DNA of 44,863 nt from Syntrophomonadaceae bacterium (GTDB taxonomy: Bacteria; Bacillota; Dethiobacteria; DTU022). The notes under the pieces were generated by a model, which was given only the letters and a program-made list of their open reading frames with translations, ran no database searches and was not told the origin of the DNA. The stretch is taken from NCBI GenBank assembly GCA_003554615.1, contig PWGX01000047.1:1-44863 (forward strand), read 5' to 3'. Shown here in pieces: positions 32,405 through 42,724 of the stretch (positions are counted from its first letter, which is position 1; every line of letters starts with the position of its first letter). The position numbers and the translations under genes are program-made.

Positions 32405-32721
32405 GAATTAATACCCGTTCTTTCCAAATTACCAATTATTATAACACAACTGCGATACTGATCCACGTGCTGCAACTCAAATATGTCTACAAGCTCATAT
32501 GACCCCTTCCTTGTGAGTTATTTGCTTAATATTTCCATGATTAATCAGTAAATACTCTATATAAGAGTGTAATTCTTGGCTATACTACCTCGTTTCCCTT
32601 TTGCGAAAAGGTAAATATTATGACATAATAATATAGTATTGAATGTACCATGATCTGGCAGTAATAGGAAGGCGCCTCCGGTAAACGGGCCGGATTATAT
32701 TGAATGCTTTTTATAAAATAC

Positions 32722-32775
32722 CCGTATAACAATCAGAATCAGGCGCGCCCTGAACGATGTAATACGGTTTTTTTT
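32722..32775 (+). terminator. Intrinsic-terminator-like structure in the leader of the mttB-type gene
   Basis: CCGTAT (32722-32727)...TCAGG-CGCGC-CCTGA (32739-32753)...ATACGG (32762-32767), followed by TTTTTTTT. Confidence 0.5.
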
Positions 32776-32830: not shown

Positions 32831-32864
32831 AGGAGGTGAACAGCCCGGGCAAATAACCGGGCTG
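32831..32864 (+). promoter_or_regulatory. Shine-Dalgarno plus hairpin translation-initiation structure of the mttB-type gene
   Basis: AGGAGGTG (32831-32838), AA, CAGCCCGG (32841-32848)-GCAAATAA-CCGGGCTG (32857-32864), GACGA, TTG start at 32870. Confidence 0.6.
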
Positions 32865-32869
32865 GACGA

Positions 32870-34405
32870 TTGAGTGAAAGAGGAGTAGTAGTAGCTAAGC
32901 CGTATGAACGTTTAAGTCAAGAACAGGTTGAACTGGTTCATCAAACATCTTTAGATCTTTTAGAGACGCCGGGTATTCTCTGTTACAACGAAGAAGCTGT
33001 TGCATTGTTGGAAAAAGCAGGTGCCACTGCCAAGAAAACACGCGAGGGAGAGCATGATGCCTGGTGGGTAAGTATTCCGGAAAAAGTGGTTCAGAAGGCG
33101 TTGGATAGTGCTCCAACAAAGGTAACTCTTGGAGCAAGAAAACCGGAAAATCAGGTTGTTATGGATGCTGAAGGTTCCAGGGTTTATTTTGGCACCGGTT
33201 CGGAAACCAACTATTGGTTGGAAGTTGAGCCGGAGACTTTTGTCTCCAAGCAGGATGGACGAGAACAGGTCTTTCCGGTAACGAAAAAAAACCGGGGCAG
33301 TCTGGAATATCTTTGTCGCTCAGCACATCTTGCAGAACAACTTGATAACTTAGATTTTTTCCTTCGCAACGTTAATGTGCAGGATTCCGATATCAGTGGC
33401 GAAAATAAAGATGTCAACGTTTTTTTTGCCGCCTTAAATTATACTACCAAGCCGATAGTTAGCGGAGTAGCCGATCCTGAACAACTTGAAAACGTAGTTG
33501 CCATGGCTGAAATAATAACAGGCGGGCGCGAACAACTGATCAAAAACCCGATAGTTACATTTATTACCAGTGTGATCAAGAGTCCTTTACAAATAGTGGA
33601 TGAAACTGCAGACAAACTGATGGCCATTTCCAAACTTGGTTTACCAGTTATTATTTCCACTTCACCTCAGGGTGGATCAACGGCCCCCATAGAAGAATTT
33701 GGTATGGCGGCACAGGTAAATGCGGAAACTTTAGCTGGAATAGCAATCAACCAGCTGGCCAATCCGGGGGCACCGGTTATTTATGGTGCGGTGCCGGTAC
33801 GAGCGCGCATGGACGATCTGCACGACATGTACGGTGTGCCTGAATTTTGTCATTACAACATGATCTGTGCCCAGATGGCCCGGTATTACAAGGTGCCGTG
33901 TTATTCAACCGCCGGTGTTGCCGATGCAAAGGTGCCGGGTGTCCAGGCGGCCGTGGAAAAAATGTTTACATACACAGCAGTCCCTTCTTCAGCACCCGAT
34001 TTAATTCACTATGCCTTCGGTTTATTGGACAAAACACAAACTTTTTGTCCGGAGCAGGCTGTTCTTGAAAACCATCAGATTGCTATGGTTAAGTCACTTT
34101 ACCGGGAAAGTGGTGTGGAAGCAGGAGAGGCCGGACGGATAAAGAGTATGATCGAAGAAGTAATGAACAGTCCTTACAGGCTCTATGCACGTTTTGCCCG
34201 TAAGATGCTGCGTCGCGGTGAAATCTTCCCCGGTTTCCCCTTTGAAGGTGATTTGGAGGAAGAGGATCAGACTTTGCTGGCAGCCCATGACAAGTTAAAA
34301 GAACTTGAAAAACAGGAGCCGGAGCACCTTTCAGAAGATATTTGCAAGCGTATTTTTGAGCAGATACCCGGATTGCTGCCCCGTTTAAATCCATATAAAA
34401 AATAA
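32870..34405 (+). CDS. Trimethylamine methyltransferase (MttB) superfamily protein, non-pyrrolysine type
   Basis: LSQEQVELVHQTSLDLLETPGILCYNEEAVALLEKAGA; VYFGTGSETNYW; GGSTAPIEEFGMAAQVNAETLAGIAINQLANPGAPVIYGA. Single uninterrupted 511-aa frame; TTG start. Confidence 0.9.
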   Translation: MSERGVVVAKPYERLSQEQVELVHQTSLDLLETPGILCYNEEAVALLEKAGATAKKTREGEHDAWWVSIPEKVVQKALDSAPTKVTLGARKPENQVVMDAEGSRVYFGTGSETNYWLEVEPETFVSKQDGREQVFPVTKKNRGSLEYLCRSAHLAEQLDNLDFFLRNVNVQDSDISGENKDVNVFFAALNYTTKPIVSGVADPEQLENVVAMAEIITGGREQLIKNPIVTFITSVIKSPLQIVDETADKLMAISKLGLPVIISTSPQGGSTAPIEEFGMAAQVNAETLAGIAINQLANPGAPVIYGAVPVRARMDDLHDMYGVPEFCHYNMICAQMARYYKVPCYSTAGVADAKVPGVQAAVEKMFTYTAVPSSAPDLIHYAFGLLDKTQTFCPEQAVLENHQIAMVKSLYRESGVEAGEAGRIKSMIEEVMNSPYRLYARFARKMLRRGEIFPGFPFEGDLEEEDQTLLAAHDKLKELEKQEPEHLSEDICKRIFEQIPGLLPRLNPYKK

Positions 34406-34418
34406 CAGTGGCAGGTAT

Positions 34419-34460
34419 CCTTTGTTATACAACCCCGGGGTTGTATAACAAAGGTTTTTT
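34419..34460 (+). terminator. 18-bp perfect-palindrome intrinsic terminator between the mttB-type gene and the corrinoid-protein gene
   Basis: CCTTTGTTATACAACCCC (34419-34436), GGGGTTGTATAACAAAGG (34437-34454), TTTTTT (34455-34460). Confidence 0.9.
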
Positions 34461-34547: not shown

Positions 34548-35249
34548 ATGTTGAAGGAAGAACTGATTAAACGCATAGTGGAAAATGTCCTGCAGGGGCG
34601 CCGCAATAAGGATGATGAAGGTATTGAAGAAGATTATGTCGGTGAGCCGGGAGTGGCGGAGCTGGTCCAGGAAGCACTGGATAACGGGATCGATACCAAC
34701 ACGATTCTGCTTGAAGCCCTCAGCAAAGGCATGAAGCAGGTCGGGGAAAAATATGAAACAGGAGAATATTTTATTCCGGATATGCTAACTGCTGCAGAAG
34801 CTGTTGAAGCGGGCATGAAAGTCATGGAACCGCACCTGGCCAGCGCAGGTGAAAGTGAACGCAAAGGAAAAGTGATCATGGCGACAGTAGAAAAAGACCT
34901 GCATGATATTGGTAAAAACCTGGTTTCGATTATGCTTAAAGGAGCCGGTTTTAATGTAGTAGATTTGGGCATTGATGTACCTGCTGCCCGGATTGCAGAA
35001 GCGGCTGAACAAGAAAAAGCGGATCTGGTTGGGCTTTCGGCCCTGCTCAACACTACCATGGTTAACATGGAGGATGTTGTTAAAGAACTTGAGAATAAAG
35101 GGCTTCGAGACAAGGTTAAGGTTATAATTGGCGGAGCACCCACTTCTGATGATTTTGCGGCCGAGATAGGCGCCGACGGATACGGAAAAGATGCTTTTGC
35201 CGCAATCCGGGTGGCAGAGAATTTATTACAATCAGGAGGGAAAAATTAG
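34548..35249 (+). CDS. Corrinoid (B12-binding) methyltransferase protein, MttC/MtaC-like
   Basis: EKDLHDIGKNLVSIMLKGAGFNVVDLGIDVPA (DxHxxG motif), GLSALLNTTMVNM, VIIGGAPTSDDFAAEIGADGYGKDA; cap domain LLEALSKGMKQVGEKYETGEYFIPDML. Confidence 0.94.
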   Translation: MLKEELIKRIVENVLQGRRNKDDEGIEEDYVGEPGVAELVQEALDNGIDTNTILLEALSKGMKQVGEKYETGEYFIPDMLTAAEAVEAGMKVMEPHLASAGESERKGKVIMATVEKDLHDIGKNLVSIMLKGAGFNVVDLGIDVPAARIAEAAEQEKADLVGLSALLNTTMVNMEDVVKELENKGLRDKVKVIIGGAPTSDDFAAEIGADGYGKDAFAAIRVAENLLQSGGKN

Positions 35250-41239: not shown

Positions 41240-42724
41240 ATGGAAAAACCGACTTATGAAGGCGGGGGCTATAATGTCCTTTCTGAAAAGGAGATAAGCC
41301 AGATCCATGAAACATCGATCAAGGTGTTGGAAAAAGTAGGATTTGAAATTAATTACCAGCCGGCCCTCGAGCTGTTTGAAAAAAACGGGGCAAGAGTTGA
41401 TTATGACCGCCACCGGATCTATGTGACCAGGGATCTTGTATCCCGCTGTATCAAACAAGCTCCGGCCGAATTTGTCTTTTACGGCCGCCAGGAAGGAAAA
41501 GATATTACCATTGGCGGCAAGAAAGTTAATTTTGGCACCGGAGGACTGGCCCTTTATGTTTTGGATCTTGAACGCAACAAGCGACCCGGGGCCATCCACG
41601 ATGTCGCTGAGCTGGCCCGGCTTGCCGACAGGCTGGAATACCTGAACTTTTTTATCAATCCCCTTTACCCGCATGATATCAATATCGAGACTGTGGGTAT
41701 CAATACCAAGTACCAGGCTTTTCTGAATACCGGTAAACCGGTAATGGGCGGTATTTTCAGCAAGCAGGGGCTTGAAGACTCAATTAGAATCGCCTCAATT
41801 ATCGCCGGAGGTCTGGAAAATCTACAGCGCAGGCCCTTTGTCGGTTTTATTTCATCGATAACCAGCCCGTTAAAAATCAGCCCCGAGCATGCGGAGTATA
41901 TCATGGAAGTAGCCCGCTATGGTCTCCCCCTGGCTACATCAACTGCCCCTGCAGCCGGCGCAACGGCGCCGATCACCCTGGCCGGCACCCTGGTTCAGCA
42001 AAATGCCGAAGCGCTGATGGGAGTTATGCTTACCCAGCTTGTTAACCCGGGCACGCCTGTCCTGTACAGCGCTGTTCCGGTAACCATGGATATGCGGACC
42101 ATGTCCTTCTTGATGGGCAGTATTGAATCGGGCCTGATGAACGCAGCCATTACCCAGATGGCCCATTATTACCGCCTCCCCTGTTACCTGACTGTGGGAA
42201 CCACTGATTCCAAGCTGCCTGATGCCCAGGCTGCTCATGAAGGAGCGACCACAGCCATGCTGGCTGCCCTGGCCGGAGGGAACTTTATTCATGAAGCGTT
42301 TGGCATGCTTGACGGCGCCCTTACCGTTTCATATGCTCAGTATATTATTGACAATGATATTGTTGGAAGCTGCCTGCGTACTTTACGGGGCATCGAAGTC
42401 AATCAAGATTCCCTGGCCTATGATGTCATAGCCAAGGTTGGCCCCGGTGGCAATTATCTTGGTGAAGAACATACAGTCAGGTACATGCGCACTGAAAGCT
42501 TTGCTCCGCGGGCCAGCGATCGACAGCCTTACCAGCGCTGGATCGATGCCGGGAGCAAGGACAGCTGGAAGCGGGCGGAAGAACTTGCTGTGCAGATCCT
42601 CCAGGAGCCTTCCGAGCCGATTGTTCCCCCGGAAATCGATGCCAGGGTCAGAGAGGAATTTCCAGCCCTGGTTACCGTAGAAAAAGGAGACGGGATCCAT
42701 TGGGAGACTGAGTCGTCAGGATAG
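41240..42724 (+). CDS. Trimethylamine methyltransferase (MttB) superfamily protein, second paralogue, non-pyrrolysine type
   Basis: LSEKEISQIHETSIKVLEKVGFEINYQPALELFEKNGARVDYDRHRIYVTRDLV; VNFGTGGLALYVLD; AAGATAPITLAGTLVQQNAEALMGVMLTQLVNPGTPVLYSAVP; uninterrupted frame. Confidence 0.92.
   Translation: MEKPTYEGGGYNVLSEKEISQIHETSIKVLEKVGFEINYQPALELFEKNGARVDYDRHRIYVTRDLVSRCIKQAPAEFVFYGRQEGKDITIGGKKVNFGTGGLALYVLDLERNKRPGAIHDVAELARLADRLEYLNFFINPLYPHDINIETVGINTKYQAFLNTGKPVMGGIFSKQGLEDSIRIASIIAGGLENLQRRPFVGFISSITSPLKISPEHAEYIMEVARYGLPLATSTAPAAGATAPITLAGTLVQQNAEALMGVMLTQLVNPGTPVLYSAVPVTMDMRTMSFLMGSIESGLMNAAITQMAHYYRLPCYLTVGTTDSKLPDAQAAHEGATTAMLAALAGGNFIHEAFGMLDGALTVSYAQYIIDNDIVGSCLRTLRGIEVNQDSLAYDVIAKVGPGGNYLGEEHTVRYMRTESFAPRASDRQPYQRWIDAGSKDSWKRAEELAVQILQEPSEPIVPPEIDARVREEFPALVTVEKGDGIHWETESSG

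Follow-up and report, generated by a model that had tools for sequence, protein, structure and literature searches.

A hairpin between a distant Shine-Dalgarno sequence and the start codon of an mttB-type gene, one case of a recurrent arrangement in Bacillota

Background

A hairpin located between the Shine-Dalgarno (SD) sequence and the start codon can shorten the spacing between the two, as described for two genes of phage T4. For gene 38, a reduction from 22 to 5 nt was experimentally established (PMC3014915). For gene 25, the spacing is reduced from 27 to 11 nt, which is supported by mutations and DMS probing, and the arrangement is conserved in T-even phages (PMC3014915; the work of Nivinskas 1999 and of Malys and Nivinskas 2009 is taken here as reviewed there). 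In the open-access literature the arrangement was found described only in T4-related text and a conserved chromosomal class was not found, an observation that is weak evidence in itself.

Two further kinds of initiation regions are related to these. The ordinary extended SD sequences of Firmicutes, as described for S. aureus (PMC13009471), consist of a strong GGAGGTG-type motif at a spacing in the ordinary range. RNA thermometers and translational riboswitches place structure within the initiation region and sequester the SD or the start codon.

Here we analysed the initiation region of a methyltransferase gene of the mttB superfamily (called mttB below) within a stretch of 44,863 nt (the window). 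According to the original prediction, the only strong SD of this gene lies 31 nt before a TTG start and is separated from it by a perfect 8-bp hairpin, whose removal leaves a spacing of 7 nt; a similar arrangement is known for T4 gene 38, and the hairpin could act as a structural or thermal switch on methyltransferase synthesis. The locus shares with T4 gene 25 a hairpin between SD and start, which here would likewise cut the spacing. In contrast to that phage gene, the cases reported here are bacterial chromosomal genes of many functions from several Bacillota families, with constant 2 + 5 nt linkers in the mttB genes of the family of the window, preferred CCYGG stems and TTG, GTG or ATG starts. 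Gene 38 is likewise a single phage gene, for which no recurrence within a genome is reported in PMC3014915, whereas the arrangement here is recurrent. With the extended SDs of S. aureus it shares the strong motif and, once the hairpin is removed, a spacing in the ordinary range, but no spacer hairpin is described there (PMC13009471). Unlike in thermometers and riboswitches, SD and start codon both lie outside a stem that is predicted to be stable.

Methods

The window, contig C37, belongs to a 983-kb assembly that is 71% complete. Families are referred to by the anonymous codes f1, f3, f4, f5, f40 and f65; the window belongs to f1. The compared sequences are mostly metagenome-assembled or representative genomes, in which start codons were inferred from the open reading frames (ORFs), and the names of further genes were assigned by reading translations. 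A protein search in 60 related genomes yielded 21 mttB orthologues of at least 64% identity besides that of the window. Searched with a covariance model of the mttB site, 17 f1 genomes each yielded one strong copy. The pattern GGAGGTG-N1-5-CCYGG-N3-20-CCRGG was searched in 23 f5 genomes, while the orthologues of rpsN were collected by protein similarity, independently of any stem pattern.

Results and discussion

The mttB ORF (32870–34405, on the forward strand as are the SD, the hairpin, the promoter, the leader element and the corrinoid gene described below) starts with TTG, encodes 511 aa and matches Pfam PF06253 (E 3e-62). Its SD, AGGAGGTG (32831–32838), is followed by the 2-nt linker AA, the 5′ arm CAGCCCGG (32841–32848), the loop GCAAATAA (32849–32856), the 3′ arm CCGGGCTG (32857–32864) and the 5-nt linker GACGA (32865–32869). 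The raw spacing of 31 nt minus the hairpin is 2 + 5 = 7 nt, or 9 nt if counted from AGGAGG. Direct reading confirmed the predicted SD, the perfect 8-bp hairpin, the TTG and the residual spacing. An in-frame TGA (32837–32839) overlaps the SD 33 nt before the TTG, so that the ORF has no start further upstream, and no ATG, GTG or TTG occurs in frame between the two, again as predicted. The one other SD-like run nearby, GAGGAG (32880–32885), lies within the ORF with no usable start after it; hence, for the leader, the statement that there is only one strong SD is valid.

The stem is located wholly between SD and TTG. The spacer folds at −18.5 kcal/mol with a pair probability of about 1, only one of 200 shuffles gave a better fold than the region itself (z −3.4), and both the minimum free energy and the centroid structure contain the hairpin. 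A repeated or mobile palindrome is ruled out by the single exact copy in the assembly and by the covariance model, which returned a second strong copy from none of the f1 genomes.

The nearest named relative is a Syntrophomonadaceae metagenome-assembled genome, with 98% identity to the encoded protein. Since its TIGR02369 score of 236 bits is below the cut-off of 525, it is a member of the MttB superfamily only and not the trimethylamine equivalog; together with the lack of UAG within the ORF this rules out the pyrrolysine enzyme, trimethylamine methyltransferase MttB. Downstream follow genes for a corrinoid protein of the MtgC/MttC type (34548–35249; NF047996/TIGR02370 below cut-off, Pfam B12-binding), a SAM-type methyltransferase and a glycine betaine/choline-type ABC transporter. 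From these neighbours a quaternary amine appears the likely substrate, and the corrinoid protein, the gene of which has an ordinary AAGGAGG SD, is the probable cognate methyl carrier.

Between the methyltransferase and corrinoid genes, a perfect 18-bp palindrome, CCTTTGTTATACAACCCC/GGGGTTGTATAACAAAGG, followed by T6 (34419–34460) has the shape of an intrinsic terminator within the operon. About 59 nt (35191–35249) are shared by the end of the corrinoid gene and the listed ORF of the SAM-type methyltransferase, which probably starts in reality at the internal ATG found in MDADKAYQEAIRHGRYSEH. A match to Rfam PYLIS_3 above the gathering score (42200–42299) lies inside a second mttB homologue (41240–42724). 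It was rejected as a sign of pyrrolysine use, because there is no UAG there; the match probably reflects coding similarity to mttB. In the frame of that gene, the only UAG is the terminal TAG itself.

The SD-hairpin-TTG layout was present in all 24 readable close mttB orthologues (19 from f1, 5 from f5), with an invariant SD and the start at the same place, while four more distant homologues (44–49% identity) lacked the AGGAGGTG-hairpin-TTG arrangement. Among the 19 f1 sequences, the total SD-start spacing was 31–34 nt and the hairpin span 24–27 nt. The distances from SD to stem (2 nt) and from stem to start (5 nt) were constant with the sole exception of L021, in which the predicted stem is extended by extra weak pairs; the loop varied in sequence and length. 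The corresponding linkers in f5 measured 3–4 and 6–8 nt. Because insertions and deletions here are not in steps of three nucleotides, coding sequence can be ruled out for the hairpin. In L028 the hairpin is weak and imperfect (−8.9 kcal/mol).

Covariation of the stem in orthologous leaders had been named as a check of the original prediction, and it was found. Double-sided compensatory changes occurred at four of the nine stem pairs among the 19 f1 sequences, with pairing kept (A-U to G-C, U-A to C-G, G-C to A-U, and changes at the innermost pair); the other five pairs never varied. Twelve compensatory cells were observed against 4.0 in shuffles, and none of 500 shuffles reached the covariation score, a control that is optimistic since the sequences are related. 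Sliding the pairing partners, a control with the same relatedness, destroyed the covariation, and the real score exceeded those of all slid structures. Two of these orthologues, L324 and L326, came from the search with the upstream leader and so were not selected for the hairpin; both possess it, and L326 adds a new G-C to A-U change. The comparison of sequences, with conservation in every close orthologue and compensatory changes, argues that the mttB hairpin is not a product of chance. The site combines a distant SD, no alternative SD or start, a stable internal structure, a functional spacing once the hairpin is excised, and compensatory changes, as expected for a split initiation region.

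The mttB site is one case of a recurrent class in Bacillota, judging from the same layout before other genes. Weak matches of the covariance model in order-level relatives turned out to be this layout before trpD, clpB and a CooC-like ATPase gene. In the f5 genomes the pattern matched 103 times, compared with 7 matches of the reversed pattern and 8 of the permuted stem GGYCC/GGRCC of equal composition. The bridged starts belonged to rpsN (ribosomal protein S14), trxA (thioredoxin), an L25-type gene, clpB, glmM, trpD, ilvC, ilvE, glyA, an EF-G homologue, a bifunctional-nuclease-like gene and others; in other Bacillota families remA, ilvC, clpB, an Asp23-type gene and argS were bridged. A start codon (TTG, GTG or ATG) followed the hairpin in 72 of the 80 fetched matches. 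In 66 of these 72 the raw spacing of 22–45 nt became 7–12 nt after excision, and the stem-start distance was 5–7 nt in 57; ordinary f5 genes have their start mostly 5–10 nt after GGAGGTG. Among the EF-G homologue genes, bridging occurs in several f5 genera (L353, L387, L197, L207), and the hairpins there differ in size (about 28–36 nt). With only a few sites per genome, bridging as a pervasive feature of every gene is ruled out.

Most members of the class were found by the CCYGG pattern. Of the rpsN genes collected by protein similarity, all 19 from f5 were bridged and none of the 11 from outside (f1, f3, f4), in which the SD lies at ordinary distance. Upstream of one f3 rpsN (G037:C184, locus L265) the sequence reads AAGGAGGTCCTGGTGGTTTGGC, with ordinary spacing yet with the CCTGG of the bridged f5 genes, possibly an intermediate in the gain or loss of the hairpin. 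When remA was collected across the phylum in the same way, the upstream regions read included a single bridged case, that of f40, and the phylum pattern search showed it bridged in members of f65, too; hence, bridging has been gained in particular lineages.

A first scan with loose settings, which covered ~0.4 Mb from each of the two families f1 and f5, did not reveal a clear excess in f5. In a stem-agnostic scan of 1.55 Mb of f5 DNA, part of it contigs chosen for holding known cases, 17 of 67 SDs with a distant start were bridged, ten of them by CCYGG stems, against 1.6–1.8 expected from shuffled spacers and 1–4 obtained with four decoy motif sets. The seven sites with other stems alone exceed the 1.8 expected (Poisson about 0.003), and at trxA of G049 the layout is kept with the unrelated stem GCCGCU/GGCGGC. 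In 0.4 Mb of f1, the same scan returned mttB only.

Taken as sequence evidence, these results make it highly probable that the hairpin is a permanent structural bridge within a split translation initiation region. The 30S subunit would pair with AGGAGGUG, and the 24-nt hairpin just behind it would fold the surplus spacer out of the mRNA path. The UUG, otherwise 31 nt downstream, would be presented at an effective distance of 2 + 5 = 7 nt, and the ribosome would initiate at this UUG (32870) owing to the fold. The effect of the hairpin would be to permit or enhance initiation constitutively. Selection may have favoured it for accuracy in choosing the start, for an unfolded start region or as a point at which expression is adjusted. 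The predicted accessibility of the SD is moderate (mean unpaired 0.2–0.6 at 37 °C). Folding the spacer away, and so bringing SD and start back to an ordinary distance, would explain the constant linkers, the variable loops, the covariation and the use before unrelated genes. Strong support for the proposed shortening of the effective distance, as known from T4 gene 38, comes from the constant linkers, the compensatory changes, the shared start and dozens of independent cases, all at the level of sequence comparison.

A second question is whether the sequence of the stem is read as well. Stems favour CCYGG/CCRGG, the rpsN stem CCTGGTT/AACCAGG is nearly invariant without any double-sided change, and more than half of the mttB pairs do not vary, so that something may read the stem sequence. 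Conservation beyond what pairing needs may reflect folding economy or recognition. Recognition of the stem beside the SD by an RNA-binding protein or a ribosomal component, acting as a specific enhancer or repressor of a gene set, would account for the excess of CCYGG stems in f5 over permuted and reversed ones and for the rpsN stem. We consider it unlikely, as loops vary freely, the target genes have no common function and other stems exist, at trxA of G049, L27, an acyl-CoA dehydrogenase and a thiolase, and as CCTGA in L326; moreover, the bias may reflect stability or folding speed. Somewhat less doubtful, and still speculative, is the broader proposal that hairpin-bridged SDs are a dedicated, sequence-preferring initiation device of Bacillota. 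The initiating ribosome or a factor would recognise a CCYGG/CCRGG stem placed 2–4 nt behind GGAGGUG; the stem would have been acquired and fixed gene by gene (as for rpsN in all of f5) and would give a co-ordinated gene set a property absent from ordinary SDs. Pairing of the 5′ arm with 16S helix 45, considered for the similarity of CAGCC to the complement of the 16S 3′ end, was unsupported, as the arms vary among genes; the pattern search for the 16S 3′ end had no match in any genome.

Upstream of the SD, a likely promoter of the extended −10 type consists of TTGCGA (32601–32606), a 17-nt spacer and CATAAT (32624–32629), preceded by TG. A ATGACATAAT-like box is conserved in the aligned f1 leaders. 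Alignment and a covariance model defined a conserved leader element of 122 nt (32653–32774). Its first part is a CCGG(UAAACGGG)CCGG hairpin (f1 consensus CCGG-UAARCGGG-CCGG), its second a three-tier stem CCGTA..ATC..TCAGG/CCTGA..GAT..TACGG with conserved internal loops, followed by a T run. Of 71 genomes of the order, 20 contain the element, as a single copy; all 20 are from f1, and in 18 of them the position before mttB was confirmed. The model of the element had no match in f5. From its shape it is possibly an attenuator resembling an intrinsic terminator, perhaps controlled by a ligand or a protein. By eye, ACGGG of the first hairpin (32685–32689) can pair with CCCGT of the 5′ arm of the terminator-like stem (32721–32725), a possible antiterminator. 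A known riboswitch was rejected, as Rfam 15 gave no gathering-level match in the leader and only chance-level matches at a lax threshold. For regulation of the operon, this element is more likely the relevant candidate than the bridging hairpin.

A hairpin within an initiation region is a classic control site, and the conserved terminator-containing leader precedes the same gene, both in favour of a switch as suggested by the original prediction. Melting by temperature, or remodelling by a ligand or the leader, would then alter the spacing and hence the amount of methyltransferase. The switch proved unsupported, and we regard it as very improbable. In silico, the pairing probability of the stem was at least 0.97 from 10 to 70 °C, both in short and in whole-leader context, which predicts no melting and no rival pairing partner within the leader. 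This, with SD and start codon left uncovered by the hairpin, rules out an RNA thermometer. Moreover, the same device precedes rpsN, trxA, clpB and other genes without a shared leader, and five f5 mttB genes keep the hairpin in a family in which the leader model has no match. Predicted to be stable and used before housekeeping genes, the mttB hairpin looks like a constitutive, fixed strut rather than a thermal switch.

Stable hairpins often protect transcripts or mark processing sites, and an element of RNA stability or processing (e.g. a stem that protects the 5′ end, or a site for RNase III or RNase Y) could have come to lie between SD and start by chance. Such a coincidence is likewise very improbable, as it leaves unexplained the constant 2 + 5 nt linkers and the match of excised to ordinary spacing in dozens of genes. 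Least probable of all is a DNA operator for a dimeric transcription factor, in favour of which are the perfect palindrome and the conserved sequence at its base: the half-site distance varies (loops of 4–10 nt in mttB, 3–22 nt elsewhere), G-U pairs occur in L014 and L018, the site follows a terminator-like stem and is placed between SD and start, and rpsN is normally part of the spc ribosomal operon.

Conclusions

With the hairpin of mttB read as a structural bridge, a mechanism described for two genes of phage T4 would recur in cellular genes and be fixed there by evolution; one of these genes, rpsN, encodes a ribosomal protein and is bridged across the whole bacterial family f5. Gene finders and models of translation rate that score only the linear SD-start distance would misplace such starts or call the genes SD-less. 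The same gene being bridged in one family and ordinary in a sister family provides a natural series, which makes the effect of a hairpin in the mRNA channel on initiation directly testable.
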